From Pseudomonadota bacterium (GTDB lineage: Bacteria; Pseudomonadota; Alphaproteobacteria; Micropepsales; Micropepsaceae): 64,000 nucleotides of DNA. Position 1 is the first letter of the stretch; each line of letters starts with the position of its first letter. A model generated the notes under the pieces. That model worked only from the letters and a program-made list of their open reading frames with translations, was not told the origin of the DNA and did not search any database. The DNA lies in NCBI GenBank assembly GCA_016201105.1, contig JACQDN010000021.1, positions 1 through 64,000 on the forward strand. Reading direction: 5' to 3'. The translations under genes were made by a program, and so were the position numbers. Positions 8,520 to 32,936 of this stretch are shown here, one piece after another.

Positions 8520-8522
8520 GAA

Positions 8523-8658
8523 ACTACCCTCCCTCGGGAGGGTCGAATTTGCGAAGCAAATTCGGGGAGGATGTGCGAAGGCGATCTCCCTTCCGCGTCC
8601 TCCCCGAAAAATCCTGCGCTTCGCTCCGGATTTTTCGACCCTCCCAAGGGAGGGTAGT
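8523..8658. repeat. Palindromic intergenic repeat, copy A
   Basis: The copy is bounded by ACTACCCTCC and its complement GGAGGGTAGT. It contains, in order, a small hairpin (CCCTCCCTCGGGAGGG), a GCGAAGCAAATTCGGGGAGG module, a short spacer, CCTCCCCGAAAAATCC, a CGCTTCGCTCCGG hairpin, and a closing CCCTCCCAAGGGAGGG. The left and right halves are roughly inverted copies of each other. Copies B (12081-12264) and C (16698-16834) have the same layout. It fills the space between two convergent stops and can fold as a bidirectional transcription-ending structure. No coding content is credible. Confidence 0.85.
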
Positions 8659-17819: not shown

Positions 17820-17842
17820 TTGAGTGGATGTCGTCTGCTTAT

Positions 17843-17986
17843 CTATCGCGCCGCCACATCCACCGGCGGACCTTCCGACGCCTTCGTGAACGCGATCCGG
17901 CAACGCAATCCATCCGTCTCGTAGTCGATGTCGACAGAGCTGTCTTTCTCGCTCGCCACCACAAAGCGAATGACGCGGCTGCCGAA
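17843..17986 (-). pseudogene. 3' fragment of an HWE histidine kinase gene
   Basis: Read on the minus strand, this stretch encodes 47 residues from FGSRVIRFV through SVDIDYETDGLRCRIAFTKA to PPVDVAAR and a TAG stop. That is the exact C-terminal tail of the intact kinase at 31335-32771, with only a few changed residues (VASEKDSS versus TARERDGS). By eye the DNA matches over about 145 bases with roughly 18 differences, mostly at third codon positions. Homology ends abruptly near 17987, where unrelated DNA leading to the FNR box begins. No H-box or ATPase core remains, so it is non-functional. It marks the left edge of the anaerobic island. Confidence 0.8.
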
Positions 17987-18026
17987 GTCCCGTCGTCGAT
18001 CCTTGGCGCTTCGCAAGTGTCGCAGC

Positions 18027-18040
18027 TTGATCCGGATCAA
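18027..18040. promoter_or_regulatory. FNR/Anr box upstream of ubiTUV
   Basis: TTGATCCGGATCAA is a perfect match to TTGAT-N4-ATCAA and is fully self-complementary, extending to 16 bp with the outer C/G. If the box is centred at -41.5, transcription would begin near 18075. That is upstream of the TTG start and GGAGG site chosen for ubiT, and downstream of the two nearer ATGs. O2-limited activation of this operon by the FNR-type protein encoded at 27391 is the natural reading. Confidence 0.85.
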
Positions 18041-18100
18041 GGTATGGCGCTCTTGATTGCCCGAACATGCGGGATGGAGCAGTTCCTGGAGGTCCCGGTT

Positions 18101-18616
18101 TTGCCCGGCTGGGCAAGACTCGGAGCCGGCCTTCTGCCGGCATCTCTGTTGGAGTCCGTCGTCGCACGCATCGCAAAATCGACGCTGCGACGGCATCCTG
18201 GACTGCTGGACCGTCTCGATTCTTACGCCGCCACAACAGTTCTGATCGATCCCACGGATCTGCCGTTTGGATTCTATCTGACGCCTTCCTGCGATGTACC
18301 GGTCACTGTTCTGCGCCGCCCGCTTTGCCGCGATCACGCCGCATCTATCGCCGGGCCTTTTGCCGCACTTGTGGCCATGCTCCATGGCAGGCTCGACGGC
18401 GATGCCCTGTTCTTCTCGAGAGACATCGCAATCGAGGGTGACACCAGCGCGATTCTCGCGCTCCGAAATGCCCTTGACGATGCCGAAATCGATCTGGCTC
18501 GCGAATTCGCCGCACTGTTCGGACCGATGAGCGCATTCGCGGAAATTCCGATACGGGCGGTCGTGCCCTTGGTCGAACGCTTCACCGGTGCGGTTTTGTC
18601 TCGCCGGGAGATATAG
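18101..18616 (+). CDS. ubiT: UbiT, SCP2-domain accessory factor for O2-independent ubiquinone biosynthesis
   Basis: A 171-residue protein (the E. coli form is 174) that starts the ubiT-ubiU-ubiV operon. UbiT is thought to bind the lipid intermediates that UbiU-UbiV hydroxylate without oxygen. LPGWARLGAGLLPASLLESV aligns with the N-terminal helix of UbiT, and the SCP2 core includes HGRLDGDALFFSRDIAIEGD, equal to the family's 'DTLFFQRRLVIEGD'-type segment. Start choice matters. ATGs at 18044 and 18074 lack ribosome sites and lie at or before the transcript start predicted from the FNR box. TTG 18101 has GGAGG with 8-base spacing, so I use it. UbiU follows after 4 bases. Confidence 0.85.
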   Translation: MPGWARLGAGLLPASLLESVVARIAKSTLRRHPGLLDRLDSYAATTVLIDPTDLPFGFYLTPSCDVPVTVLRRPLCRDHAASIAGPFAALVAMLHGRLDGDALFFSRDIAIEGDTSAILALRNALDDAEIDLAREFAALFGPMSAFAEIPIRAVVPLVERFTGAVLSRREI

Positions 18617-18620
18617 AGAA

Positions 18621-19616
18621 ATGAGCAACCATCCGCGCTTGGAGCTCGTGTGTCCCGCGGGCACGCCGGCGGGGCTTCGCGCGGCAATCGATGCGGGCGC
18701 CGACGCCGTCTATTGCGGCTTTCGCGATGAAACCAACGCACGGAATTTTCCGGGCCTTAATTTTTCGCGCGCAGAGCTGGAGGAATGCGTCGCTTATGCG
18801 CACGCCCGCGAAACGAAGGTTCTCGTCGCCATCAACACCTTTCCCCACGCAGGCAATGCCGGCCCGTGGCATCGCGCTGTCGATGACAGCGCAAGCCTCG
18901 GAGCCGACGCAGTCATTCTCGCCGATATTGGCCTCTTGAGCTACACCGCCGAGCGGCATCCGCGGCTGAGACGCCACTTATCGGTGCAGGCGGCTGCGGC
19001 CAATGCCGACGCGATCGGCTTCTACGTGCGCGAATTTGACGTGCGGCGCGTCGTGCTGCCGCGCGTTCTGAGTGTGCAGGAGATCGCGGCCATCAACGCG
19101 GAAGTGGAGTGCGAGACTGAAGCCTTCGTTTTCGGAGGGTTGTGCGTGATGGCGGAAGGGCGCTGTTCGCTGTCGTCCTATGTCACCGGAAAGTCGCCCA
19201 ATCTGAACGGCGTGTGCTCACCGCCGAGCCATGTCGTCTATCGCAAGGAAGGCGATGAGCTTCTGTCCCTATTGGGCGACTTCACCATTCACCGCTTGGG
19301 CGCTGGTGTTGCCGAACCGTATCCCACGGTGTGCAAGGGATGTTTCGACGCCGGAGATTTTCACGGTCACGTGTTTGAGAGCCCCGCAAGCCTCGATGCG
19401 TCGGCGCTGATCCCACAATTGGCCGCGGCCGGGGTGGCGGCGCTCAAGGTGGAAGGGCGACAACGTAGCCGGGCGTATGTGAGCAGCGCTGTTCGCAGCC
19501 TTCGCTGTGCCATAGACAACTATGCTGCCGGATTGCCTATCGCCGCTCGCGCGCTTTCTCGCCTGAGCGAGGGGCAGGCTTCCACACAGGGCGCTTATCG
19601 AAAGACATGGCGCTAG
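18621..19616 (+). CDS. ubiU: UbiU, U32-family [4Fe-4S] protein of the O2-independent ubiquinone hydroxylase
   Basis: A 331-residue peptidase-U32-family protein. It begins LELVCPAGTPAGLRAAIDAG, GADAVYCGF, the family hallmark. UbiU and UbiV form a heterodimer that hydroxylates ubiquinone precursors without O2, with prephenate as oxygen donor in E. coli. The four cluster-binding cysteines known in E. coli UbiU (169, 176, 193, 232) map here to 175, 182, 199 and 238, with exactly the same spacings (7, 17, 39). The motif region reads GLCVMAEGRCSLSSY ... NGVCSP ... VCKGC. The gene sits 4 bases after ubiT and abuts ubiV, so it is one operon behind the FNR box. Confidence 0.96.
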   Translation: MSNHPRLELVCPAGTPAGLRAAIDAGADAVYCGFRDETNARNFPGLNFSRAELEECVAYAHARETKVLVAINTFPHAGNAGPWHRAVDDSASLGADAVILADIGLLSYTAERHPRLRRHLSVQAAAANADAIGFYVREFDVRRVVLPRVLSVQEIAAINAEVECETEAFVFGGLCVMAEGRCSLSSYVTGKSPNLNGVCSPPSHVVYRKEGDELLSLLGDFTIHRLGAGVAEPYPTVCKGCFDAGDFHGHVFESPASLDASALIPQLAAAGVAALKVEGRQRSRAYVSSAVRSLRCAIDNYAAGLPIAARALSRLSEGQASTQGAYRKTWR

Positions 19617-19624
19617 GGAACGGC

Positions 19625-20563
19625 ATGCCTGATCGCACCGCCAAGGCGTCAACTGCCGGGAATAGAGCCGCTCTGACCTTGGGGCCGCTGCTCTTCAACT
19701 GGCCGGTGGAGAAGTGGAAGGACTTTTATGCGCGCGTAGCTGACGAAGCGCCTGTCGATGTGGTCTGTCTTGGCGAAGTTGTCTGCTCCAAACGGCTTGC
19801 GTTCTATGTCGACGTTATCTACGAGGCCGCTGAACGGCTTCGCGCAGCAGGCAAGACTGTCGTTCTGAGCACGCTTGCGCTGATCACCTTGCCGCGCGAG
19901 CGCAAGGAATGCGCAGAACTCGTGCGTAGCGCAGAGTTTGACATCGAGCTGAACGACCTGACGGCCTTGTCCTACCTCGAGAAAACCCGACCCTTCCGCG
20001 TCGGTCCCTTCGTCAATGTCTACAACGAAGGAACGCTGCAATTCCTGGCGCGCCGAGGCGCCGTGAGCGTGTGCTTTCCACCGGAGCTTTCGCTGGGCGC
20101 GGTTGAGGCGCTGTCGCGGGCCGCAGCTTCAATGGGCATTGAAGCCGAGGTCTGGTCATTCGGACGCATCCCGTTGGCGATCGCCGGGCGCTGCTACCAC
20201 GCGCGAGTAGAAGGCCTGACTAAGGATTCTTGCCAATTTGTGTGCGCACGCGACAGCGACGGGTTGGATGTCAAGACGTTGGACGGAAATCCGTTCCTGG
20301 CTATCAACGGTGTTCAGACACTCTCACACACGTATTGCAATCTTGCCGCGGATTTGGACCGGTTACGAGAGGCCGGTGTCGCTTCCTTTCGCCTGTCTCC
20401 TCACAGCGGCGATATGGCGGCAGTCGCACAAGCTTTTCGCGATAGGCTCGATGGACGCATCGCCAAGGACGAAGCATGGGCAAAGATCTCCGGGGCAAGC
20501 GGGGCCACCGCTTTCTCGAACGGATTTCTGTTCGGCAAATCCGGCGTCGAAATGGTTCGTTAG
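19625..20563 (+). CDS. ubiV: UbiV, U32-family [4Fe-4S] partner of UbiU
   Basis: A 312-residue partner of UbiU. Starting at ATG 19625 (AGGGA upstream), Cys54 lies in LGEVVCSKR, and Cys190, Cys203 and Cys207 lie in GRCYHARVEGLTKDSCQFVC. The last three have the same 13- and 4-residue spacings as E. coli UbiV Cys180/193/197, so the [4Fe-4S] site is complete. VVLSTLAL and LAINGVQTLS are other family stretches. An in-frame ATG at 19607, overlapping ubiU by 10 bases, is an alternative start. The stop overlaps the stop of the convergent channel gene by 4 bases. ubiTUV together let the cell make ubiquinone for anaerobic respiration, e.g. on nitrogen oxides. Confidence 0.95.
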   Translation: MPDRTAKASTAGNRAALTLGPLLFNWPVEKWKDFYARVADEAPVDVVCLGEVVCSKRLAFYVDVIYEAAERLRAAGKTVVLSTLALITLPRERKECAELVRSAEFDIELNDLTALSYLEKTRPFRVGPFVNVYNEGTLQFLARRGAVSVCFPPELSLGAVEALSRAAASMGIEAEVWSFGRIPLAIAGRCYHARVEGLTKDSCQFVCARDSDGLDVKTLDGNPFLAINGVQTLSHTYCNLAADLDRLREAGVASFRLSPHSGDMAAVAQAFRDRLDGRIAKDEAWAKISGASGATAFSNGFLFGKSGVEMVR

Positions 20564-21642
20564 GCGCGTGCAGTCTGAGGCGCAAAATTCTTGAAGAATC
20601 TGAAATTGGAGACGACCAGCGCCGTCATCACGCAGAGCCACACTGCGGCCGCTACCCACACAAAGCTACGTCCCAGGCTTTGCAGAAACGGAAACTGGGC
20701 GGCGAGAGAAAAGCGGAAGGTTGCAACCGAATACATACCGAGAGGGAAGACGAGGCTCCATAGCGCCGGCGTATAGCTGAGAGGAACGCGGCAAATCACG
20801 TGCTTCCAGATTCCAAAACAAACAAGCAGCGGAATCCACCATGTCCCCCAAGCCCAGATCATCATCGTTGTCCCGTCGATGAACGGCTTCATGTCGGCGA
20901 GGAAGGAGATATGCGGCTTGCTCAGAATCAGGCTGGTGCCTGCGTTCGCGCTGATTGCAGCCGCCCCCATGACGACCCACAGCAGAGGCGAAAGGTCTTC
21001 GGCCGCTAGTCTGAAGAAGAAGATTCGGTAGCTGAAAAGCGTAACGAATATGGCGTAGAGCGCGAGCCCGATGCCCCACAGCATGTGGGCGAGGACGATG
21101 AGGCCCGGACCGGAGGCCGAGAGATGATCCGCCACGCGCACGCCGAGCAACACGAGAGACTGCGTACCGACGATCGCAATCAGCCAGCCGCCGTGTACGA
21201 CATTGGCGTTCTGCGCGGAGTTGAGAAATGTGAGCACCGCGAAGCTGAAATAGAGGAGCAGAAACCACAGCCCTAGCGCCAGCAACCATAGCGCAATGGC
21301 CAGCGAGGCAAACCCGCGTAGATCGAGTTGAATACCCAGAACATCGCTGGCGGCTACGATCGTAAAGAAGGAAAAAACCAGCTTGGGGTCCAACAGATCT
21401 TTCCATAACGCCGGCGTGTGGCGGACGAGCCTGGTGAGAATTACAAAGATTATGAGCGGATAGGCGATAAGATTCACGAAGAAGAGGATTTGCGAGAGGC
21501 CGAACCAACCCGTGAAATAAAAGGCGTTCGAAATAATTCCAGTCGCCATGACCAGTGCACCGTAGCCTGGATAGAAATCGCGGACGCCGCTGTCCAGCCG
21601 TGTGAAGATGCTTCCGGGTAGGGATATCGTGCCTGTTGCCAC
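20560..21642 (-). CDS. TDT-family transporter / SLAC1-TehA-like channel
   Basis: About 360 residues with ten predicted hydrophobic segments, the TehA/Mae1/SLAC1 fold. Recognisable parts are YGALVMATGIISNAF, the conserved first helix, WLLALGLWFLLLYFS, and WGTWWIPLLVCFGIWKH. Members are anion or C4-dicarboxylate channels, or tellurite-resistance proteins. No N- or C-terminal accessory domain is present. The start is uncertain. GTG 21642 gives a short leader before helix 1 and lies just downstream of the transcript start expected from an FNR-like box at 21698-21711. Longer in-frame starts up to 21786 would begin inside that regulatory DNA. Export or uptake of an organic or nitrogen-oxide anion under low oxygen is plausible. 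Confidence 0.82.
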   Translation of the reverse strand: MATGTISLPGSIFTRLDSGVRDFYPGYGALVMATGIISNAFYFTGWFGLSQILFFVNLIAYPLIIFVILTRLVRHTPALWKDLLDPKLVFSFFTIVAASDVLGIQLDLRGFASLAIALWLLALGLWFLLLYFSFAVLTFLNSAQNANVVHGGWLIAIVGTQSLVLLGVRVADHLSASGPGLIVLAHMLWGIGLALYAIFVTLFSYRIFFFRLAAEDLSPLLWVVMGAAAISANAGTSLILSKPHISFLADMKPFIDGTTMMIWAWGTWWIPLLVCFGIWKHVICRVPLSYTPALWSLVFPLGMYSVATFRFSLAAQFPFLQSLGRSFVWVAAAVWLCVMTALVVSNFRFFKNFAPQTARA

Positions 21643-21697
21643 GGCGGTGAATTCGTTCTGCCCACAAAAAATCCTACGGCAACTACGATCAAGAACA

Positions 21698-21711
21698 TTG
21701 ATCAAGATCAG
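21698..21711. promoter_or_regulatory. FNR-like box facing the TehA/SLAC1-like gene
   Basis: TTGATCAAGATCAG matches TTGAT-N4-ATCAA at 9 of 10 defined bases (final A is G). Its centre at 21704.5 would place a minus-strand start near 21663 if used at -41.5, about 20 bases before the GTG of the channel gene. Confidence 0.65.
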
Positions 21712-21772
21712 TAAGCCGCTTGACGGGCGACGCTCGCAAAGCGCACGGAAATGCTGCGGCAGTCCATTGTCT

Positions 21773-21786
21773 TTGATGCGGATCAA
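21773..21786. promoter_or_regulatory. FNR/Anr box facing the five-gene CoA operon
   Basis: TTGATGCGGATCAA is a perfect FNR box, and flanking bases extend the arms to TCTTTGAT and ATCAAAGA. Used at -41.5 on the plus strand it gives a start near 21821, about 68 bases before the acyl-CoA dehydrogenase ATG. A further half site (TTGATCTAG) lies at about 21818. It could also act on the divergent channel gene. Confidence 0.8.
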
Positions 21787-21888
21787 AGATGAGCTGGCCC
21801 CCGAGGGTTCAAAAAGATTGATCTAGCGCAACGACGCGCCCGCAACGCTCTCTCATTGTGAACGGAGCATGATGGCGGAGGACTTGGC

Positions 21889-23094
21889 ATGGCGATGCTC
21901 GCGCTTGATCTGGATCCGGAATACACGGACGCAGAACGTGCTTCATGGGAGACCGCGCATCGTTTCGCTCGGGACGTGCTGCGCCCGTCGGGCGAGAAGC
22001 TCGACAAACTGGCGGCGAGCGACGTCATTGCCCGCGAATCGATCCTCTGGGATGTCTTCCGGAAATACCGCGGACTTGGTCTTGGAATGTTCGAAGAGGA
22101 TTCTCAGCTCTCACTCCACGAGCAGGCCAGCATCCGCTGCATCGTGGGTGAGGAGATGGGATGGGGCGACACCGGCCTGGCGATCAGCCTGGGCGTCGCA
22201 AACTTTCCCACCATGTTCGCGCGGATGTCGAACAATCCGGCGCTGATCGAACGGTTTCCCGTCGGAACTCTGGGCTGCTGGGCCATTACCGAACCCGATC
22301 ACGGCTCCGACCTGATCAATTTCGACGGTACGCTCAATCATCCCGGCGGCCATGCGCGCCGGCCCAATTGCCTGGCGCGCCGCGACGGAAATCAATTTGT
22401 GATCTCCGGACAGAAATCCGCCTGGGTTTCCAACGGCACGATCGCGGAGGCCGCGGCGCTGTTCTGCTCGGTCGACATGGGCGACGGCCGCCTTGGCGGC
22501 GGCGTCTTCGTCGTGCCGCTGAACGAGGACGGGGTCAAAAAAGGAAAACCGACCGACAAGATCGGCCAACGCGCTTTGAATCAGGGCGAGATTTTCTTTG
22601 ACGGTCTGAAGGTCCCCGCCGACTCGCTCGTCGTGCCGCCGGAAGGATACCGCGCAGCAGCCGACAGGGTTTTGTGTCTGGCCAATGGGGGCATGGGAAC
22701 CACGTTCGTCGGCTGCGCCCGTGCCGCCCTCGAACTCGCCATTGACTATGCCAAGACGCGGGTCCAGGGCGACGTTCCGATCTTCATGCATCAGAGCGTG
22801 AAGTCGCGTCTGTTCAAGATGTACCAGAAGGTCGAGGCAGCCCGGGCGCTGAACCAGCGGGTCGTGCGCATCAACATGACGCGCGAGGTTCCTCTGCTGG
22901 AAATGGCGATCGCCTCGAAGGTGACGTCGACGCAAGCCGCGTTCGATGTCGCCAGCGACGCGCTGCAGGTGTTCGGCGGCGCCGGAATCTCGCGGGACTG
23001 CCCGATCGAAAAGATATTCCGCGATGCCCGCATCTCGATGATCGAAGACGGCTGCAACGAAGTTCTCGGCATGGTGGCTGCCGCCCGTTTCTGA
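21889..23094 (+). CDS. Acyl-CoA dehydrogenase family protein (first gene of FNR-box operon)
   Basis: A 401-residue FAD-dependent acyl-CoA dehydrogenase. GCWAITEPDHGSDL is the conserved flavin/acyl site; GQKSAWVSNG follows; and the C-terminal end has DALQVFGGAGISRDCPIEKI and MIEDGCNEVLG. The last Glu occupies roughly the place of the catalytic base, in an unusual EDGCNEV context instead of the common YEGT. A GGAGG site lies 7-8 bases before the ATG. The gene is followed at close spacing by thiolase, CoA ligase, nitroreductase and ferredoxin genes. It probably oxidises (or, run in reverse, reduces) an acyl-CoA at C2-C3 within an O2-independent pathway. The substrate is unknown. Confidence 0.9.
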   Translation: MAMLALDLDPEYTDAERASWETAHRFARDVLRPSGEKLDKLAASDVIARESILWDVFRKYRGLGLGMFEEDSQLSLHEQASIRCIVGEEMGWGDTGLAISLGVANFPTMFARMSNNPALIERFPVGTLGCWAITEPDHGSDLINFDGTLNHPGGHARRPNCLARRDGNQFVISGQKSAWVSNGTIAEAAALFCSVDMGDGRLGGGVFVVPLNEDGVKKGKPTDKIGQRALNQGEIFFDGLKVPADSLVVPPEGYRAAADRVLCLANGGMGTTFVGCARAALELAIDYAKTRVQGDVPIFMHQSVKSRLFKMYQKVEAARALNQRVVRINMTREVPLLEMAIASKVTSTQAAFDVASDALQVFGGAGISRDCPIEKIFRDARISMIEDGCNEVLGMVAAARF

Positions 23095-23126
23095 GGAAAC
23101 TTCGCCGGCCTGATGGAGTCGGACGC

Positions 23127-24362
23127 ATGAAGATGAATGCCTATGTGGCGGGCGTCGGCATGACACGGTTCAGCCGGATGATGGACCGTGGCCTCAAGTC
23201 CATCGGCGGCGAAGCGATCGTGGCGGCCTTGGCGGATGCGGGGCTCGAGAAAAAGGACGTGCAGGCGGCATGGATGTCCAATGCCGCCGCTGGAGTTCTC
23301 ACCGGTCAGGAATGCATCCGCGGCGAAGTGGTTCTGCGCGGAATCGGAATGGGCGGATTGCCCGTGATCAATGTGGAGAACGCCTGCGCCAGCGCCTCGA
23401 CCGCGTTCAACCAGGCTTGCGCCATGGTGAGCGCCGGTCTCTATGACGTGGTGCTCGCCTGCGGCGTCGAGAAAATGTATCTCGCGGACAGGGCTAAAGT
23501 CTTCGGCGCCTTTATGGGCGCGGTCGATGTCGAACAGCTGCAGACAATTCTCGAAGGCCTGCAGAAATCGGCCGCTGCGAGCGGGGCAACGGAAGCCTCG
23601 AAAAGCGCTGGCCAGAACCGGTCCATGTTCATGGACATCTACGCCGCTGCGGCGCGCGCGCACATGGCGCGTTACGGAACCACGGCCGAACAGTTTGCCA
23701 TGATATCGGCGAAGAACTCTTTCCACGGCTCGCTCAATCCGCGCGCCCAATTCCGCGAAGCGATGAGCGTCGAGGAGGTCCTTGCTTCACCGATGATTGC
23801 CGAACCTCTGACCCGGCCCATGTGCTCGCCGATCGGCGCTGGCGCGGCGGCGGTGGTGATTGTCGGCGAACGCAAGATGCGAGAACTCGCCCCTGCGAAA
23901 CCGGTCCGCGTGGCCACCAGTGTTCTGAGGTCGGGTTGGGACCACGCCGCCGGCAGCGAGGGGCTGTCCGAAGTTTGCGCCAGGGATGCCTATAACGAGG
24001 CCGGCATCGGTCCGGACGATCTCAGTCTGGTCGAACTTCACGATGCCTCGGCGCCTGCGGAATTGATGGGCTATGAATCGATCGGCCTTTGCCCAAAGGG
24101 CGAAGGCGGACGTCTGGTGGCGGACGGCGCGACCCGGCTTGGCGGACGCATTCCCGTCAGCACCTCGGGCGGTCTTTTGCGCAAGGGCCATCCCATCGGC
24201 GCCACCGGTCTCGCCCAGGTGGTGGAGATCGCCGAACAGCTTCAGGGCCGGGCCGGCGCGCGTCAGGTGACGAACGCGAGGATTGGCCTCTGCCACAACG
24301 GCGGCGGAAACATCGGCTCCGATGCCGCCGCCCAATGCGTCACCATTCTGACGAGCGGATAG
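23127..24362 (+). CDS. Thiolase family protein (SCP2-thiolase-like)
   Basis: A 411-residue thiolase of the sterol-carrier-protein-type subgroup. The acylated Cys is in NACASAS (Cys87), the active-site His is in GHPIGATG, and the second Cys is in LCHNGGG. The start is MNAYVAGVGMTRFS. Members cleave 3-ketoacyl-CoAs, often with branched or bulky chains, or catalyse aldol-type C-C bond changes. The internal insert (LQKSAAASGATEASKSAGQNRS) is typical of this subgroup. It lies 32 bases after the acyl-CoA dehydrogenase, and the CoA ligase follows after 5 bases. A beta-oxidation or chain-shortening step in the FNR-linked operon is likely, although no hydratase or 3-hydroxyacyl-CoA dehydrogenase is encoded with it. 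Confidence 0.9.
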   Translation: MKMNAYVAGVGMTRFSRMMDRGLKSIGGEAIVAALADAGLEKKDVQAAWMSNAAAGVLTGQECIRGEVVLRGIGMGGLPVINVENACASASTAFNQACAMVSAGLYDVVLACGVEKMYLADRAKVFGAFMGAVDVEQLQTILEGLQKSAAASGATEASKSAGQNRSMFMDIYAAAARAHMARYGTTAEQFAMISAKNSFHGSLNPRAQFREAMSVEEVLASPMIAEPLTRPMCSPIGAGAAAVVIVGERKMRELAPAKPVRVATSVLRSGWDHAAGSEGLSEVCARDAYNEAGIGPDDLSLVELHDASAPAELMGYESIGLCPKGEGGRLVADGATRLGGRIPVSTSGGLLRKGHPIGATGLAQVVEIAEQLQGRAGARQVTNARIGLCHNGGGNIGSDAAAQCVTILTSG

Positions 24363-24367
24363 GCGAT

Positions 24368-26092
24368 ATGGCGCGCGCGCTGAACGAGATGGTTCTTGCC
24401 GATCTGATCGCCGCGCGGGCGCAATCCAGGCCCGATCTCGACGTGGTGACATTCGAGGGCGGCCCAACCGGTGTGGACGAAGTTCGCACCTACGCCGATC
24501 TGTGGGCCAACGCCAACCGGCTCGCCGCGGGACTGATCGCTCGGGGCATGAACTACGGCGATCGCTTCGCCATCCTCATGCGAAACCATCCTGAGTTCAT
24601 CGAACTGATGATCGCCGCGTCGCTGACCGGCTTGGTGTTCGTTCCGATCGATCCCAGAACGCGCGGCAGGAAGCTGGCCTACACGCTCAACCATTCGGGA
24701 TGCCGCGGCGTGGTGTGCGCCGACTACACCTTGGCGCAGGTGGCCGAAGTGCGCGGCGAACTTGCGTCGCTGGACTGGATCTGGGTTCTGGAGAGCCGCG
24801 ACGAGCCGCACGCGATGGCAACTGCGGACATTGCGGCGGCGATCGATTTGAAGGACGTCCTCGCGCAGCCGCAGACTTGGGTCGACATGCGATTGCGCGA
24901 TCCCGACGATCCGCTGCAGATCATCTACACCTCGGGCACGACCGGCGATCCCAAAGGCGTCGTGTTCGGCAATTCCCGTTACGGCGGCGCCGCCATGCTC
25001 TCGGCGCTGCTTGGCATAAGTGCGGACGAGCGGCCTTATACTGGGCTCTCGCTCACGCATGGAAACGCCCAGCTGATGACACTGGCGTCCGCCTTGCGGG
25101 TGGGACAGCGCGCCGTGTTCAGCCGCAAGTTCACCAAGTCGCGCCTGTGGGACATCACGCGCAAATACGGATGCACCTTCTTCAATCTGCTGGGTGGCAT
25201 GGCGACCGCCATCTACAGCGAGCCGGTCAAGCCCGACGACGCCGACAACCCGGTACGCTTCGTCCTCAGCGCCGGGATGCCTGCGGCCATCTGGGAGAAT
25301 TTCGAGCGGCGCTTCGATCTGAAAGTGCTGGAGGCCTACGGCGCGATCGAGGGGGGCATGGCGTTCAAGCCGATCGGCGTCGGTCCGATCGGCAGCTTCG
25401 GCAAGCCGCCGGCCAATCTCGACATGAAGGTCGTGGACGAAGCCGGCAACGAATGCGCGCCGGGCGAACTCGGCGAACTGATCTGCCGCTCGGCGAACGG
25501 CGCCGCGTCGGTCGTTACCTATTTCAACAATCCGGCCGCATCGGATCGAAAGACCGTCGGCGGCTGGCTGCGCAGCGGCGATATCTGTCATCGCGATGCC
25601 GAAGGCTGGCTGTTTTTCGACTATCGCAAGGGTGGCGGCATCCGGCGCAACGGCGACTTCGTCAATCCGGGCTTCGTCGAAGCCGCCCTGGCGGAGATCC
25701 CCCAGATCACCGACGTCTATGTCTACGGCATTCCCTCTTCGAACGGCGCGCCCGGCGAGAAGGAAGTCGTCGCCGCAATCGTGGTCGACCGGTCGAGCTT
25801 CGATCCCGACGTCATTTTCGCCGGCTGTCGGCAAAAGCTCGAAGCCAACTTCATTCCGAGCTTCCTTCAGGTCGTGGCCGAGATTCCCAAGACCGCATCC
25901 GAGAAGCCGCAGGACCGCTTCCTGATCGAAGCGTTGCGCACCGATGGGGCGGAGATTTACGAAACTCGAAACGGCCAGGCGCGGCTTGTGGCACCGGCCA
26001 CGTTCGGGGCGACGGAGCAAGCCCGCACAACTGGCGTGCCGTCGGCGCGGCCTCAGATGGTAAGCGCGGCGATGGTGATGAGCGGAGAGTGA
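24368..26092 (+). CDS. AMP-dependent CoA ligase (CaiC/acyl-CoA synthetase-like)
   Basis: A 574-residue ANL-superfamily ligase. ATG 24368 follows the thiolase stop by five bases. Motifs are IIYTSGTTGDPKGVVFG (ATP loop), LEAYGAIEGGMAF (A5 region, with an unusual IEGG), and GGWLRSGDICHRDAEGWLFFDYRKGGGIRRNGDFVNP (read as separate segments around the hinge). The C-terminal PKTASEKPQDRFL segment holds the catalytic Lys position. It should activate a carboxylic acid entering the pathway. The protein runs about 40 residues beyond the usual end, rich in Ala/Thr/Arg, with no known motif. Fourth-position context between thiolase and nitroreductase suggests it supplies the CoA thioester on which the rest of the operon acts. 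Confidence 0.9.
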   Translation: MARALNEMVLADLIAARAQSRPDLDVVTFEGGPTGVDEVRTYADLWANANRLAAGLIARGMNYGDRFAILMRNHPEFIELMIAASLTGLVFVPIDPRTRGRKLAYTLNHSGCRGVVCADYTLAQVAEVRGELASLDWIWVLESRDEPHAMATADIAAAIDLKDVLAQPQTWVDMRLRDPDDPLQIIYTSGTTGDPKGVVFGNSRYGGAAMLSALLGISADERPYTGLSLTHGNAQLMTLASALRVGQRAVFSRKFTKSRLWDITRKYGCTFFNLLGGMATAIYSEPVKPDDADNPVRFVLSAGMPAAIWENFERRFDLKVLEAYGAIEGGMAFKPIGVGPIGSFGKPPANLDMKVVDEAGNECAPGELGELICRSANGAASVVTYFNNPAASDRKTVGGWLRSGDICHRDAEGWLFFDYRKGGGIRRNGDFVNPGFVEAALAEIPQITDVYVYGIPSSNGAPGEKEVVAAIVVDRSSFDPDVIFAGCRQKLEANFIPSFLQVVAEIPKTASEKPQDRFLIEALRTDGAEIYETRNGQARLVAPATFGATEQARTTGVPSARPQMVSAAMVMSGE

Positions 26093-26094
26093 AG

Positions 26095-26910
26095 ATGAGC
26101 GACGTCCTTGAACTTGAAGACCTTGAAGATCTGGAGTGCGAACTGGAGGCAGCCGATGCCAAGGCAGGTCGGACCGCGCGCCGCCGCACCGCCATTCACG
26201 ACATCGAGCCGGGCGCCGCATGGAACGACGTCGAGCACGCAATCTTGACCCGTCGCAGCATCCGCAAATTCAAGGGACGCCAGGTTCCGGCCCACATGAT
26301 CCGCCGCATCCTGGAGATGGGCCGCTTCGCGCCCTCGCAAGGCAATTGTCAGCCCTGGTCGTTCGTCGTCGTGCGCGACAAAGCGATGATTGCGGAGATG
26401 GAGCAGTATTGTGTCGCGGTCTGCAAGAACATGACGGCGAGCGTCGACTACACCAACTACCCGCCGGGCAGTGAACAGCGCGCCGCCATCATGGAAAATA
26501 CGCAGAAGCTCAATCGCGCCAGCCCCAATTCTTTTCACCCGGTGCCGATGACGGCGATCAAGTCGATCGCCAACGGCAGGTTTGCCGTCTTCCACAAGGC
26601 GCCGACCGTGATCTTGATCCTGGTGGAAGAGCGCGGCGTCGGCGTTCCGGAGGTCGACATTGGCGTCACGGGCACCAACATCGTGCTCGCCGCGCAGAGC
26701 CTGGGACTGGGGACCTGCTGGGTCGGCTTTTCCAGACTGCTCAGCAGCAACGCCGCCCTGTTGGAGAAACTGGGCGTCGCCCCGCCGTTCGAGATCGCCG
26801 AGGCGATTTGCGTCGGTTATCCGATCGGCAATCCCACGCAGCAAACCGTGTCCCGTCAAACCCATCAGATCGTCTGGTGGGAAGGCGGAGAAAAACAGAT
26901 TCTGTACTAG
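26095..26910 (+). CDS. Nitroreductase family flavoprotein with acidic N-terminal extension
   Basis: A 271-residue FMN-dependent nitroreductase-fold protein. ILTRRSIRKFKGRQVP and GRFAPSQGNCQPWSFVVV are the conserved FMN-binding segments; DIGVTGTNIVLAAQSLGLGTCWVG is the second. The first 40 residues are an added acidic, Leu/Glu/Asp-rich tail (LELEDLEDLECELEA), possibly a protein-contact segment. The stop of the ligase lies two bases upstream, and a ferredoxin gene follows after 11 bases. This arrangement suggests that electrons reach the FMN from the ferredoxin rather than from NAD(P)H. Possible roles include reducing a double bond or ring of a CoA ester, or oxidoreductive removal of a substituent. 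These are inferences from context. Confidence 0.88.
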   Translation: MSDVLELEDLEDLECELEAADAKAGRTARRRTAIHDIEPGAAWNDVEHAILTRRSIRKFKGRQVPAHMIRRILEMGRFAPSQGNCQPWSFVVVRDKAMIAEMEQYCVAVCKNMTASVDYTNYPPGSEQRAAIMENTQKLNRASPNSFHPVPMTAIKSIANGRFAVFHKAPTVILILVEERGVGVPEVDIGVTGTNIVLAAQSLGLGTCWVGFSRLLSSNAALLEKLGVAPPFEIAEAICVGYPIGNPTQQTVSRQTHQIVWWEGGEKQILY

Positions 26911-26921
26911 GAGAGCGCGCC

Positions 26922-27263
26922 ATGAACGACGCGATCGTGAAAAAGGCCGTCGTCGACGCCGACCATCTTCCCATCTGGGACGATCCTCGCGAGGCGATTT
27001 ATCGCAAGGTGACCATCGACCTCGACAAGTGCGACGGCTGCAAGCTGTGCGTGGTGGTGTGCCCGGCCAATATCCTCGAACTCTTCGGCCCGAAGGACAA
27101 TTTGAAAGCCCGCCTCAAGACCGACTTCACCGGCTGCATGAGTTGCAACAACTGCTACGCGGTGTGCGCGGGGCAGGGGATCTTCGCTACCGAGCCTTAC
27201 GATTTCGCGGGCTACTACGAACAGAAGCGGATCAGCGAGTTCGCCTTCCCGCGAAATTTCTAA
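26922..27263 (+). CDS. 2[4Fe-4S] ferredoxin-like protein
   Basis: A 113-residue iron-sulfur protein. Two complete cluster motifs are visible: CDGCKLCVVVCP (Cys 37, 40, 43, 47) and CMSCNNCYAVC (Cys 72, 75, 78, 82). The 24-residue spacer between them and N- and C-terminal extensions make it longer than minimal bacterial ferredoxins. It should carry low-potential electrons in the cytoplasm. As the last gene of the operon, 11 bases after the nitroreductase, it is the obvious redox partner of that flavoprotein or of the acyl-CoA dehydrogenase. An inverted repeat spans its stop codon. Confidence 0.93.
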   Translation: MNDAIVKKAVVDADHLPIWDDPREAIYRKVTIDLDKCDGCKLCVVVCPANILELFGPKDNLKARLKTDFTGCMSCNNCYAVCAGQGIFATEPYDFAGYYEQKRISEFAFPRNF

Positions 27264-27354: not shown

Positions 27355-27368
27355 TTGATCCAGATCAA
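27355..27368. promoter_or_regulatory. FNR/Anr box upstream of the fnr-type gene
   Basis: TTGATCCAGATCAA is a perfect box. TATAAC at 27421-27426 would give a start near 27433, which places the box at about -71.5, an allowed activator position. The box also lies only 23 bases before the first in-frame ATG (27391), so autoregulation, positive or negative, is likely. Confidence 0.8.
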
Positions 27369-27390
27369 GAATCCCAATGACGACGCGACA

Positions 27391-28185
27391 ATGTTCGCAG
27401 CGCGAGCCGCTTTCAAATCGTATAACTTCGCTTGCGTAGTTCGGTACGCAACCACTTTGACACACGCGACGAAAGCAGAGTCGAGCGCATCGCGCCCTAG
27501 GTTGGAGTGTGCGGCTTGTCCCGCGCGTGCGGTCAGCTTTTGCGATGGCGTGCCGAACTGCGATCTCGATGTTCTTGCGAACAGCCGACGGCTCGTTGTG
27601 TTCGAGCGCCGGCAGACAATTGCATGCGAGAACGAAGCGGCATCTGTCTTCTTCAATGTTGTGTCCGGGCTGGTGAAACTCTCTCGCGGGTCACAGGATG
27701 GCCGCACCCAGATTGTGGGTTTCCGCGGTCCGGGCGAGTTCTTCGCCGCAGCGGAAACCGGGCGCCTTACGGCGACGGTCGAGGCAGTCGGGCGTGTCGT
27801 ACTTTGCAAATTCTCCGGGGCGCGGTTCAAACGTCTGATGCGGGTCTATCCGCAATTGTCGGCGCGCCTCTTCAGCATCAACCGTCGCCGGCTTGAAACT
27901 CTGGAAAATCAGCTTTTCCTTCTCGGGCGCATGACTGCCCGCGAAAAGGTGACAAACTTTCTTCTGCAGCACGGGTTCGACTCGATACCGGCAGGAGCGC
28001 CGCACGCACATTGCGTGCGCTTGCCCGTTACGCGTGCGGAAATTGCGGATTTTCTCGGATTGACGACGGAGACAGTTTCGCGCGTGCTGGCGAGTCTGGT
28101 ACGCGAGCGCGTGATTACCGTCGGCAAATCCCGCGCCATCCATTTGATCGACGTGGAGCGCCTGCAGCGCGAATCCGGGCGCTGA
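27391..28185 (+). CDS. FNR-type (FnrN/FnrL-like) Crp-family O2-sensing regulator
   Basis: A Crp/Fnr-family activator of up to 264 residues. An N-terminal CAACPARAVSFC motif (Cys-X2-Cys-X7-Cys, residues 40, 43, 51) and a fourth Cys at 139 in VVLCKFS are the ligands expected for an O2-labile [4Fe-4S] cluster. The X7 spacing is that of FnrN/FnrL rather than E. coli FNR. A cyclic-nucleotide-type beta-roll and long dimer helix follow. The recognition helix reads LTTETVSRVL, and the E-x2-SR residues contact TTGAT half-sites in FNR proteins. All five boxes in the neighbourhood fit this specificity. The start is unsure: ATG 27391 lacks a good ribosome site, and TTG 27457 would give about 242 residues. 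Confidence 0.92.
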   Translation: MFAARAAFKSYNFACVVRYATTLTHATKAESSASRPRLECAACPARAVSFCDGVPNCDLDVLANSRRLVVFERRQTIACENEAASVFFNVVSGLVKLSRGSQDGRTQIVGFRGPGEFFAAAETGRLTATVEAVGRVVLCKFSGARFKRLMRVYPQLSARLFSINRRRLETLENQLFLLGRMTAREKVTNFLLQHGFDSIPAGAPHAHCVRLPVTRAEIADFLGLTTETVSRVLASLVRERVITVGKSRAIHLIDVERLQRESGR

Positions 28186-28203: not shown

Positions 28204-29418
28204 ATGCAGTCCGGTGCCAGGGCAGGAACGTCCGCGCAAAGGCGCAAGTTCGAAGGGCCGGCGCTCTTTTCGTTCGGCTTCAGGCCGTTCTTCCTCGGTG
28301 CCGCCGCGTTTGCCGGAATCGCCGTTCCGGTATGGCTTGCAGTTTTCTCCGGCGCGATCCCTTCGGGCTCCTCGCAGTTGGACCCGCTCGCCTGGCACGC
28401 ACATGAGATGATCTTCGGCTATCTCGCTGCCGTCGTGGCGGGATTTCTGCTGACCGCAATCCCAAACTGGACCGGGCGCCTTCCTATTATGGGACTGAGG
28501 CTTGCCGGTCTGTTCACGCTCTGGCTCGCCGGGCGCATCGCGATGGCGCTTGCGCTTGGCGGTGCGCTCTCTCCTCTCGCGGCAAAGCTTGCCGACGGCT
28601 TTTTTCTAGTCGTGCTGGCTGCGGCGTTGGCGCGCGAGATCGTCGTGGGACGCAATTGGCGCAATCTTCCCGTCGTCGGTCTGGTGAGTTTGATGGCAGC
28701 GGCCAATCTCATCATGCATTTCGCGGAAAACATCGGTCTCGATCGCATGTTCGCGGAAAGATTGGCACTTGGCGCCGCCGCAATGTTGATCGCGTTGATC
28801 GGCGGACGGGTTACGCCCAGCTTCACGCGCAATTGGCTCGCGGCGCGCGGCGAGAAACGTCTTCCGGAGCCGTTCCAAAACATGGACCGGGCGGCGCTCG
28901 CCGTTACGGCCGCCGGCATTCTGTTGTGGATCGTCTTACCCGATCAGTGGGTGACCGGGATCGTTCTACTTCTGGCAAGCCTCGCCAATGCCGTTCGATT
29001 GTCGCGTTGGCGTATGCTCGCAACCCTGAACGAACCGCTCGTGACGATCCTGCACGTGGGCTACGGCTGGCTGTGTTTTGCCCTTGGGCTGCTCGGCGCC
29101 TCGATCTTGTTTGCCGATTGGGTGCCGTTGGCTGCTGCGCTGCACGCGCTCACGGCCGGCGCCATCGGTACGATGACGCTCGCTATGATGACGCGGGCCA
29201 GCCTTGGCCATACAGGATGGCCGCTCGCAAGCACTCTTGCGATCGACGCGATTTACATGTCGGTCAATGCGGGCGCGGTGTTGCGGGTCGCGGCGCCTTG
29301 GAGCGGTGACGCTTATCTCCCTGTGCTTGTCGCCGGCGGAGTGCTTTGGGCGGCCGCGTTTGCCGGTTTCGCGGCGGCATTCGCGCGTGCCCTGACAGCG
29401 CACGCCGTCCGTCCGTGA
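28204..29418 (+). CDS. nnrS: NnrS family membrane protein
   Basis: A 404-residue polytopic membrane protein with about twelve hydrophobic segments. Family hallmarks are FSFGFRPFFLGAAAFAG at the N terminus, WHAHEMIFGYLAAVVAGFLL, and TAIPNWTGRLP. NnrS is a haem- and copper-containing inner-membrane protein, described in Rhodobacter and Vibrio as part of the nitric-oxide stress response and often controlled by FNR/NNR-type regulators. AGGAGG lies just before the ATG, 18 bases after the fnr-type stop, so it is most likely co-transcribed with the regulator. Its presence implies exposure to NO, e.g. during nitrate or nitrite respiration, although no denitrification reductase is encoded in the window. 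Confidence 0.93.
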   Translation: MQSGARAGTSAQRRKFEGPALFSFGFRPFFLGAAAFAGIAVPVWLAVFSGAIPSGSSQLDPLAWHAHEMIFGYLAAVVAGFLLTAIPNWTGRLPIMGLRLAGLFTLWLAGRIAMALALGGALSPLAAKLADGFFLVVLAAALAREIVVGRNWRNLPVVGLVSLMAAANLIMHFAENIGLDRMFAERLALGAAAMLIALIGGRVTPSFTRNWLAARGEKRLPEPFQNMDRAALAVTAAGILLWIVLPDQWVTGIVLLLASLANAVRLSRWRMLATLNEPLVTILHVGYGWLCFALGLLGASILFADWVPLAAALHALTAGAIGTMTLAMMTRASLGHTGWPLASTLAIDAIYMSVNAGAVLRVAAPWSGDAYLPVLVAGGVLWAAAFAGFAAAFARALTAHAVRP

Positions 29419-29546: not shown

Positions 29547-29560
29547 TTGATCTGAATCAA
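29547..29560. promoter_or_regulatory. FNR/Anr box between nnrS and the exporter gene
   Basis: TTGATCTGAATCAA is a perfect box. Leftward use fits the candidate sRNA. Rightward use would start near 29595 and reach the exporter gene at 29705 through a 22-bp palindrome. Confidence 0.8.
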
Positions 29561-29646
29561 TCTGCGGCAACGCCGGCGTGTCTGGTCGAGGGCGGTGCGG
29601 AGCACGGGCTGACAAATTGTCATTGTCTGTTTCTTATCGGGCCAAT

Positions 29647-29668
29647 AAGATGACGCATGCGTCATCTT
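29647..29668. promoter_or_regulatory. Perfect 22-bp palindrome upstream of the EmrB-like exporter
   Basis: The left half is AAGATGACGCA and the right half is its exact complement, TGCGTCATCTT. A short second palindrome, TCTTTAAAGA, overlaps its right end. Lacking a U-tract and lying 37 bases before the exporter start, it looks like an operator for a dimeric repressor such as a MarR or TetR protein, whose gene is not adjacent. Confidence 0.6.
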
Positions 29669-29704
29669 TAAAGATGCGCGAACCCAAAAGCCCGGGATTT
29701 GCCG

Positions 29705-31318
29705 ATGGGCGTGGCCGAATTTCCGCGAAGTGCAGATTGGAATGGGGCGCAAGGCATTGCCGCCGTGCCAATGCAGCTCTCGCAACCTCGCGGCGAATCC
29801 ACATTGGGTTTTCGTATCGCGATCGTCTGCGTGATGCTCGGGACCTTCATGCAGACGCTCGACTCCACGATCGCGAACGTGGCCTTGCCCTATATGCAAG
29901 GCGGTTTGCAGGCCTCACGCGATCAAGTCACGTGGATTTTGACCTCCTATATCGTCACGACTGCAGTGATGACGGCGCCCGTGGGGTGGTTGTCGATCCG
30001 CTTTGGGCGCAAGAACTATCTCGCAATCAGCCTGGCAGGCTTCACGCTTGCTTCGATGATGTGCGGCGCGGCGCAGACGCTTCAGGAAATGGTGCTGTTT
30101 CGCGCGCTGCAGGGCATGTTCGGCGCAGCGCTCTCGCCCTTGAGCCAATCCATCATCCTCGACAAATACCCGCTTCACCAGCGCGGAAGAATCGTTGCGA
30201 TCTGGGGCATTGTCGTGATGCTGGGTCCCATCATGGGGCCGACCTTGGGCGGCTTTCTCACCGATCACTATAGTTGGCGCTGGGTGTTCTACGTCAACGT
30301 GCCGTTCGGGATTGCGGCGACGGCGGGCATTCTCATCTTCTTGCGCGACGAGGTGCGAATAACGGCTACGCGGTTTGACTGGTTGGGTTTCGTTTTCCTG
30401 GCGCTCGGCTTGGGAGCGCTGCAATTCCTGCTCGATCGCGGCGCCTCGAACAACTGGTTCGACTCCACAGAGACGATCGTAGAAGCAACGCTCGCGGGAC
30501 TGGGCCTCTATCTGTTCCTTGTGCACATTCTGACGTCCAAGCTTCCGTTCATCCCGCGCTCGGTGTTTCGCGACCGGAACTATGTCTCCGCACTTGGCGT
30601 GATGTTCTTCCTGGGCATCATTCTGCTCGCCACCTCCGCGTTGCTGCCGCCCTATCTCGAAAACCTGAGCGGCCATTCCGTTATGGACACCGGGCTGATG
30701 CTCGCGCCGCGGGGAATTGGCACCATGCTGGCCATGCCATTGGTAGGTCGCGCGGTCGCCAAGTGGGATATGCGCGTGCTGATGGGGTTGGGTGCCGTCA
30801 TTCTTTTATGGTCGAGTTGGGAGATGACGCACTGGACACCCGACGTCAGCGCTTCGACGCTGGCCTGGACCACATTCTTCCAAGGCGTCGCGATGGCATT
30901 TGTATTCGTGCCCTGCAACGTAGCGGCTTTTGCCACCTTGCCCGATGAGAACCGCACCGATGGCGCCGCCGTCATGAATCTCGTGCGTAGCATCGGTTCG
31001 GCGGTAGGCGTATCCGCCTCCACGACCGTGCTGATGACGAGCGCCCAGACCATGCATGCGCAGCTTGCCGAGCATGCGTCGGGCTTCAACCGCGCGCTTC
31101 TCACCAACGCGCCAGGCCTCGTCTTCAACCCCCATTCTGCATTCGGTTTGCGAAATCTCGACTTGTTCATCGAGCGCGGCGCGCAAGCCGCCGCCTATAC
31201 CAACGTGTTCGTATTCATGCTCTATCTGTGTTTGCCCGTCCTTCTCATCATTCTCTTAATGCCAAAACCGGTTGCAGATGTTGAAACAGCTGCAAAATCG
31301 ATTCATCCTGATTGCTGA
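29705..31318 (+). CDS. DHA2-family MFS multidrug exporter (EmrB/QacA-like)
   Basis: About 537 residues with fourteen predicted membrane helices. MLGTFMQTLDSTIANVALP in helix 1 and WILTSYIVTTAVMTAPVGWL are the DHA2 hallmark (motif D1/B region), followed by RFGRKNYL, equivalent to motif A. These pumps use the proton gradient to expel hydrophobic drugs. EmrB normally works with an EmrA-type membrane-fusion protein, and none is encoded here. ATG 29705 has GGGA about 8 bases upstream; an in-frame ATG at 29771 would remove the hydrophilic leader. It is the first gene right of the FNR-box island, and a perfect palindrome lies in its leader. Confidence 0.9.
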   Translation: MGVAEFPRSADWNGAQGIAAVPMQLSQPRGESTLGFRIAIVCVMLGTFMQTLDSTIANVALPYMQGGLQASRDQVTWILTSYIVTTAVMTAPVGWLSIRFGRKNYLAISLAGFTLASMMCGAAQTLQEMVLFRALQGMFGAALSPLSQSIILDKYPLHQRGRIVAIWGIVVMLGPIMGPTLGGFLTDHYSWRWVFYVNVPFGIAATAGILIFLRDEVRITATRFDWLGFVFLALGLGALQFLLDRGASNNWFDSTETIVEATLAGLGLYLFLVHILTSKLPFIPRSVFRDRNYVSALGVMFFLGIILLATSALLPPYLENLSGHSVMDTGLMLAPRGIGTMLAMPLVGRAVAKWDMRVLMGLGAVILLWSSWEMTHWTPDVSASTLAWTTFFQGVAMAFVFVPCNVAAFATLPDENRTDGAAVMNLVRSIGSAVGVSASTTVLMTSAQTMHAQLAEHASGFNRALLTNAPGLVFNPHSAFGLRNLDLFIERGAQAAAYTNVFVFMLYLCLPVLLIILLMPKPVADVETAAKSIHPDC

Positions 31319-32771: not shown

Positions 32772-32936
32772 TTCAGCCCTCAAGTTTCGTGACGCCCCTT
32801 CGCGGCGGCCTTGTTCGGCTCCTGCGGGATGTTACGAGGGTTCCGCAACGCCGGCTTGCCATCTCGCCCAACCTGTCCTTGACAAGGGCGCGCGGGAGGC
32901 AAACCGTTTCAAGATTGACATATTATCGAGGCCCCA

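Follow-up and report, generated by a model that had tools for sequence, protein, structure and literature searches.

A candidate ferredoxin-fed nitroreductase in an FNR-box operon of proposed CoA-thioester catabolism from Micropepsaceae

What could a nitroreductase-like protein and a ferredoxin do in one operon with three genes of acyl-coenzyme A (CoA) metabolism? The question is raised by a 64,000-nucleotide stretch of an alphaproteobacterial genome of the family Micropepsaceae (assembly GCA_016201105.1, contig JACQDN010000021.1, positions 1 to 64,000), which we call the window. A sequence-only reading of this DNA had described five genes with gaps of 32, 5, 2 and 11 bases, and the coordinates of the open reading frames (ORFs) bear this out: acd, thl, lig, ntr and fdx are all open, on the plus strand and begin with ATG, and they span 21889-27263. 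The five genes form a real bacterial operon:

21889..23094, plus strand: acd, acyl-CoA dehydrogenase of the 'EDG' subfamily, with Asp387 at the position of the YEG glutamate of SCAD
23127..24362, plus strand: thl, SCP2-type thiolase with HDAS in place of HDCF
24368..26092, plus strand: lig, AMP-forming acyl-CoA ligase, nearest NCBIfam model PRK06155
26095..26910, plus strand: ntr, nitroreductase-fold protein, flavin mononucleotide (FMN) expected from the family
26922..27263, plus strand: fdx, 2[4Fe-4S] ferredoxin

We propose that the operon may be the anoxic version of a more widespread module of CoA-thioester catabolism, in which a ferredoxin-fed NTR would reduce a CoA-ester intermediate, and we give this reading about an even chance. 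All five proteins exceed Pfam gathering scores (PF00441 for acd, PF22691/PF00108 for thl, PF00501 for lig, PF00881 for ntr and PF00037 for fdx). The acd, thl, lig and ntr proteins stay below the cut-off of every NCBIfam model displayed, of which there were at most 25 per protein (for thl and lig, among the matches listed).

The proposal starts from the nitroreductase and the ferredoxin. A scan of genome contigs with six peptide patterns, which was not exhaustive, found 79 loci for NTR; the weaker matches (L070-L087) are excluded from the 61 loci (L009-L069) counted here. In all 61, ntr and fdx are adjacent, and three loci carry natural fusions, with NTR first in L057 and L061 (NTR-Fdx) and the ferredoxin first in L066 (Fdx-NTR). 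The first two come from metagenome-assembled genome (MAG) sequences, where a lost stop codon is possible. Because the genes are adjacent in every locus and fused in three, the ferredoxin is very likely the partner of the nitroreductase, and the earlier suggestion that the two act as a pair thus gains support. The aligned ferredoxins (61 rows: the window and 60 of the 61 loci, with L009 left out) all have eight cysteines, arranged as two CxxCxxCxxxC motifs as in 2[4Fe-4S] ferredoxins. Outside the cluster motifs, a C-terminal Pro-Arg recurs (Pro in 61/61 rows, Arg in 58/61).

NTR belongs to the nitroreductase superfamily, scoring 101.4 bits against PF00881 (gathering score 23.5). Its structure model has a predicted local distance difference test score (pLDDT) of 88.4 and matches the fold of 3pxv (Z 20.9, root-mean-square deviation 2.5, 185 residues aligned); it resembles nitroreductases, iodotyrosine deiodinase (IYD) and BluB-like proteins. 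NTR is not a BluB by score (61.9 bits against the TIGR02476 cut-off of 150) and falls below the NCBIfam cut-off of FbiB. As a guess from the model, helices 96-117, 127-142 and 149-159 might form a substrate lid. The acidic N-terminal tail that had been singled out earlier is real in the window, but its strongly acidic, EDLEDLE-like form is confined to alphaproteobacterial rows; most relatives that are readable there (some rows could not be read) are shorter and often mildly acidic. We thus rejected the acidic tail as a feature of the family, since outside the alphaproteobacterial rows acidity is mild or absent.

The second line of evidence is regulatory. The perfect FNR box that had been reported ahead of the operon was confirmed, and a second, weaker site lies between it and acd:

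21773..21786, no strand assigned: perfect FNR box TTGATGCGGATCAA, between the divergent SLAC1/tehA-type gene and acd, 116 bp upstream of the acd ATG
21818..21831, no strand assigned: FNR-like box TTGATCTAGCGCAA, which deviates from the consensus at two positions and is found again ahead of acd in orthologous operons

Perfect TTGATN4ATCAA sites number 14 in the 3.85-Mb genome, compared to about 0.75 expected from the base composition of the window, and the reversed pattern used as a control has no perfect site in the same genome. Four of the 14 lie within one 11.5-kb stretch (at 18027, 21773, 27355 and 29547). When the 300 bp upstream of acd are aligned, there is one clearly common block, TTGATCTA[GCT]CGCAA, found in seven of eight operons (window included), and L011 has a perfect box. 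The TTGATCTAGCGCAA-type site recurs in six of seven orthologous operons (L010, L012, L013, L015, L016 and L017), at varying distances from the assumed start. A lone site with at most two mismatches is weak evidence, because 255 of 1679 background windows contain one, whereas near-identical repetition is not. The operon thus appears to have the recurring upstream FNR-type box of an FNR regulon and is probably switched on when oxygen is absent. The box at 21773 may also serve the divergent SLAC1/tehA-type gene.

We found the same five-gene order, a search for which had been suggested, complete in seven loci besides the window (L010, L011, L012, L013, L015, L016 and L017); in L009 and L014 it is cut by contig ends. 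The records of L009-L069 are titled as MAGs or uncultured, and their titles place the ntr-fdx pair in uncultured Alpha-, Beta- and Gammaproteobacteria, Deltaproteobacteria-type lineages, Actinomycetota and others. NTR is present in 5 of 96 genomes of the family and in 1 of 337 genomes of the evenly sampled class, and is thus a patchy accessory trait. Carriage of ntr on plasmids was rejected, there being no match in plasmids at E <=1e-20; phages gave weak matches to acyl-CoA dehydrogenases. An association of the operon with ubiTUV, as had been anticipated, is not conserved: the available flanks of L009-L069 have no match to ubiU, so a conserved linkage was rejected. In the draft genomes G040, G049 and G050, ubiU and ntr lie on separate contigs. 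Within the family, ubiU occurs in four of the five genomes with ntr vs 21 of the 91 others (one-sided Fisher 0.016, kinship ignored), and nirK in three of five vs 11 of 91 (one-sided Fisher 0.021, kinship likewise ignored); the genome of the window itself has no nirK match at E <=1e-60.

The trio acd, thl and lig reaches beyond this operon. Three genomes from another genus of the same family (G093, G089 and G088) have acd-thl-lig with 50-59% identity, followed by a DUF5938 protein and a thiamine diphosphate (ThDP) enzyme; they have no ntr-fdx and gave no NTR match, and their FNR boxes have 0, 1 and 1 mismatches. DUF5938 follows the trio in L133-L135 and in Pseudomonas sp. MPC6. Three further genomes carry a different nitroreductase, between acd and thl in G210 and G280 and directly before thl in G121; it is 24% identical to NTR over 177 residues, and the module stretches of these genomes contain no ferredoxin match. 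The idea that this ferredoxin-free version is the aerobic one was rejected, as an FNR box with a single mismatch stands 105 bp ahead of acd in G280.

Cultured carriers of the module are named from plasmid records. All 11 plasmid records with an acd match (E <=1e-60) have a DUF5938 match within 6 kb on the same strand. The order is acd-thl-lig-DUF5938 in Pseudomonas sp. MPC6 and acd-DUF5938-lig-thl in Azoarcus KH32C and P. aeruginosa H15, and the plasmid of B. cenocepacia 842 has a larger set with hydratase, SDR and ETF. All four modules share an EDG dehydrogenase, an SCP2-type thiolase and an AMP-forming ligase with the window, but they have an NADP-binding DUF5938 protein where the window has ntr-fdx. 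The MPC6 proteins are close to those of the window (dehydrogenase 48.1%, thiolase 58.9% and ligase 53.6% identical), whereas KH32C, H15 and 842 differ in gene order and in the ligase, which is 23-24% identical to LIG. These modules are annotated, and no description of their function was found in the literature searched. The DUF5938 protein of the module contains an NADP-binding domain; it had no convincing match among solved structures (best E 0.021), and its single-sequence model (pLDDT 44) was not used. By gene content, then, acd, thl and lig make up a wider module, not exclusive to this operon, which other redox proteins can accompany. Because related operons have a ferredoxin-free nitroreductase or DUF5938 in the slot, they probably carry out the same step and differ just in the electron donor. 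The alternative redox proteins are most simply read as three donors for a single reductive step.

ACD is an acyl-CoA dehydrogenase by Pfam (PF00441 103.2 bits, PF02770 57.2 bits). Aligned with mitochondrial SCAD, it has I-E386-D387-G opposite I-Y-E-G. The Glu of YEG is the catalytic residue of SCAD; ACD has Asp387 in its place, and its catalytic base may be Asp387 or Glu386. The odd EDGCNEV context pointed out earlier is real, and EDG marks a subfamily: it is found in the window-type dehydrogenases near NTR, in G210 and G280 and in the four plasmid homologues, and the larger dehydrogenases (about 500 residues) of the loci from Actinomycetota and Deltaproteobacteria have IYEG. THL has the residues of an SCP2-type thiolase: Cys87, His305 and His355 (positions counted by hand) fall opposite the nucleophilic Cys, the HDxx His and the GHP His of SCP2-thiolases (6hsj, 7pxp). 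A Cys in HDCF is a feature of SCP2-thiolase type 1, to which THL, with HDAS, does not conform. Nor is THL a benzoylsuccinyl-CoA thiolase BbsB by score (249.5 bits against the NF053628 cut-off of 750). LIG likewise falls short of the crotonobetaine/carnitine-CoA ligase CaiC (194.1 bits against the NF005947 cut-off of 651); among the matches listed, all below cut-off, PRK06155 ranks nearest and CaiC fifth. In a thl tree of 68 rows, a clade of 43 rows (100/98) unites 36 of the 39 rows linked to ntr with three trio rows and four rows labelled unlinked (L079, L060, L136 and L137); the linked rows L020, L021 and L068 fall outside.

Under the reading that we favour, LIG would form the CoA ester of a hydrophobic carboxylic acid, probably a cyclic or branched one, and ACD would introduce an alpha,beta double bond and pass the electrons through ETF to quinone, which UbiTUV could keep supplied without O2. 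Hydration and 3-hydroxyacyl oxidation would fall to enzymes encoded elsewhere, next door in some relatives, before THL cleaved the 3-oxoacyl-CoA. As had been stated before, the operon of the window has no hydratase or 3-hydroxyacyl-CoA dehydrogenase gene (ORF list and Pfam); some relatives have ECH, SDR and ETF genes near ntr. FDX would pass low-potential electrons to the FMN of NTR, which would remove an obstacle to beta-oxidation by reducing a C=C or a conjugated carbonyl in a CoA-ester intermediate, and the FNR-type boxes would make this a pathway for times of anoxia. Ferredoxin-driven reduction of a CoA ester, as suggested earlier, would be a plausible step. More tentatively, NTR-FDX could be a new class of O2-independent CoA-ester reductase, found in several phyla and built from an FMN nitroreductase fold and a dedicated 2[4Fe-4S] ferredoxin, which we regard as possible but somewhat doubtful. 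It would then plug into beta-oxidation-like modules for hydrophobic acids, as a counterpart of aryl-CoA reductases of the old-yellow-enzyme (OYE) type and of dienoyl-CoA reductases.

Several observations weigh against this proposal. NAD(P)H enzymes have the nitroreductase fold too, and Asp in place of Glu at the usual base makes the catalysis of ACD uncertain. A thl homologue lies within 6 kb in only 38 of the 61 ntr-fdx loci, a few of these homologues being distant or on the other strand. The thl clade is biased by sampling through ntr, because thl-like genes (E <=1e-85) occur in 28 of the 337 class genomes, 27 of these lacking ntr (E <=1e-40), compared to a single genome with ntr (the first 5 to 7 candidates were scored per genome in this survey); on the same numbers, thl as a clade dedicated to ntr was rejected. 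Neither is the slot strictly exclusive: L079 carries both fdx and DUF5938, so that a strict replacement of ntr-fdx by DUF5938 was rejected, and a distant saccharopine dehydrogenase protein lies near ntr-fdx in L048. Finally, ThDP enzymes beside L009/L010/L012, L133-L135, L013 and L079 suggest a further step. Apart from these points, we observed that lig and ntr in L079 have shrunk in frame to one short ORF that stands between thl and fdx (1686-1946), through a deletion or an assembly error.

The missing thl in the other 23 loci, some on short contigs, could mean that NTR-FDX is a self-standing redox pair, serving detoxification, flavin reduction or as an anoxic electron sink, which happens to share an FNR transcript with a separate beta-oxidation set. 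The occurrence of the trio without ntr-fdx and the rarity of ntr in the class fit this view. We nevertheless consider it unlikely: ntr-fdx closes the acd-thl-lig-ntr-fdx order in eight loci including the window, in several phyla it has genes for a thiolase, ligase or acyl-CoA dehydrogenase nearby, and a nitroreductase of another subfamily adjoins the same thl-lig in three other genomes. It is improbable that the electrons flow the other way, with NTR oxidising an intermediate and FDX taking the electrons away. Cyclodipeptide oxidases do have the nitroreductase fold (9exv and 8uc3 are among the structure matches), but passing electrons from an acyl-CoA to a low-potential ferredoxin would be uphill, and ACD is already there for an oxidation.

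Thiolase chemistry is reversible, a reductase is present and a hydratase and 3-hydroxyacyl-CoA dehydrogenase are absent, which would suit a biosynthetic operon where THL condenses acyl-CoAs and NTR-FDX reduces the enoyl product to an anoxia-specific lipid or acid. This, too, seems improbable to us, as an AMP-forming ligase and a dehydrogenase in one operon look catabolic, and so does what lies near some relatives: TetR/sigma-54 regulators, ETF genes and Ame-type transporters. Very improbable, lastly, is that the operon consists of ordinary, FNR-controlled genes of fatty-acid beta-oxidation and an NAD(P)H nitroreductase. Each protein does belong to a common superfamily; however, the three beta-oxidation proteins lie below the cut-off of the NCBIfam models among the matches listed, ACD falls in the EDG subfamily and ntr never occurs apart from its ferredoxin in the 61 loci.

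How does the operon compare to known systems? The claim that no characterised pathway has this gene set agrees with our search: no described function was found in the literature covered, which mostly excludes subscription journals and includes the accessible parts of PMC12016498, PMC12583861, PMC6208644, PMC6394551, PMC4109377 and PMC6747719. The monoterpene island of the denitrifier Castellaniella defragrans (mrc, ame, geo) is similar in having acyl-CoA dehydrogenases, a CoA ligase, ETF and AmeABCD-type transport (PMC4109377, PMC6394551, in the accessible text), and some relatives of the window module have Ame-type genes. It differs in that the accessible text mentions 'nitroreductase' 0 times and assigns reduction to 2,4-dienoyl-CoA reductases; the comparison is by description, not orthology. 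Type III (OYE) aryl-CoA reductases of anaerobic naphthalene degradation reduce CoA esters independently of ATP, with FMN fed via [4Fe-4S] (PMC12016498, accessible text), and could serve by analogy as a model for how NTR-FDX might work. They belong to another family, with iron-sulfur cluster, flavin adenine dinucleotide and FMN in one chain and known substrates. NTR, in contrast, has only nitroreductase domains in Pfam, and its ferredoxin is separate. The nitroreductase fold itself is shared with BluB, iodotyrosine deiodinase and the C-terminal domain of FbiB, which presumably use no ferredoxin and act on other substrates. Judged by its genes, the operon fits best among the variants of CoA-dependent acid catabolism; its novel part is a putative ferredoxin-nitroreductase acting as reductase.

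The genes around relatives give leads to the substrate. SCP2-type thiolases act on bulky or branched acyl-CoAs. Ame-type genes precede the trio in MPC6 and are found at a distance of about 16 kb in KH32C, and in the Sterolibacterium MAG L018 a set of this type, DUF1302-DUF1329-YCF48-RND, comes after the ntr-fdx pair (MMPL/RND named by Pfam, the other DUF names by reading of the ORFs). The chemistry of a bulky acid as CoA ester, as proposed earlier, is thus supported in the form of a bulky or hydrophobic acid, by the thiolase type and the Ame-type transporter genes near relatives. AmeABCD of Castellaniella belongs to monoterpene metabolism (PMC6394551, accessible text). An EbdA-like (ethylbenzene-dehydrogenase-like) molybdoenzyme is encoded upstream of ntr in L019-L021, and together with the Ame-type genes it gives a lead, and only a lead, to hydrophobic, perhaps terpenoid, acids. 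TetR or sigma-54 regulators lie near some relatives. The ThDP enzymes near the module differ (acetolactate-synthase-like in several lineages, an E1-type pair in L079), and the best match of the window's genome to the ThDP enzyme of L010 is 28%; their presence in four alphaproteobacterial contexts hints at an alpha-hydroxyketone or 2-hydroxyacyl step.

Other neighbourhoods vary as well. Three gammaproteobacterial loci (L022, L025 and L026) have a luciferase-like oxidoreductase gene upstream, where alphaproteobacteria have acd (the family was named for L022, and the other two were assigned by clustering); downstream of it follow thl-lig-ntr-fdx, lig-ntr-fdx or ntr-fdx. Desulfobacteraceae MAGs have a second nitroreductase before ntr-fdx near ETF genes (L052 9048-9905 and L060 ~7791-8618), which in L052 is fused to ferredoxin domains.

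In the window, the operon is embedded in an island of genes with FNR boxes:

18588..20563, plus strand: ubiU and ubiV, preceded by ubiT, in the same FNR-box island (FNR box 18027)
20560..21786, minus strand: SLAC1/TehA-type transporter gene, divergent from acd
27355..28185, plus strand: Crp/Fnr-type regulator ORF, first in-frame ATG at 27391
28204..29418, plus strand: nnrS-like gene, with a 45% homologue near the L133 trio

The flanking ubiT, ubiU and ubiV exceed their NCBIfam equivalog cut-offs. The ORF of ubiT (17828-18083 region) seems over-extended 5' into the detached kinase fragment described below; the UbiT domain starts at residue 102, and the FNR box at 18027 lies in this region. A perfect FNR box (27355-27368) stands at the start of the regulator ORF, and six of the first 80 residues of the regulator are cysteines (15, 40, 43, 51, 57 and 79), which we take to be in keeping with an oxygen-sensing FNR. 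The name of the nnrS-like gene is our assumption. An EmrB-type MFS efflux gene (29547-31318) follows another perfect box. The whole island is flanked by a 144-nt direct repeat (17844-17987 and 31336-31479, 87.5-88% identity); on the right it forms the 3' end of a sensor-kinase-like gene (31335-32783, minus strand), of which the left copy is a detached piece. The 13.5-kb island may have entered as a unit at the end of the kinase gene.

The operon links an uncharacterised ferredoxin-nitroreductase pair to one concrete module, where ligase, dehydrogenase and thiolase define the substrate, and electron donors can be compared across three naturally occurring alternatives of the redox protein. If the proposed reading is true, DUF5938 and the EDG acyl-CoA dehydrogenases would gain a shared pathway, and the ways in which hydrophobic acids are broken down in soils, bogs and sediments would include a further, oxygen-free reductive step.

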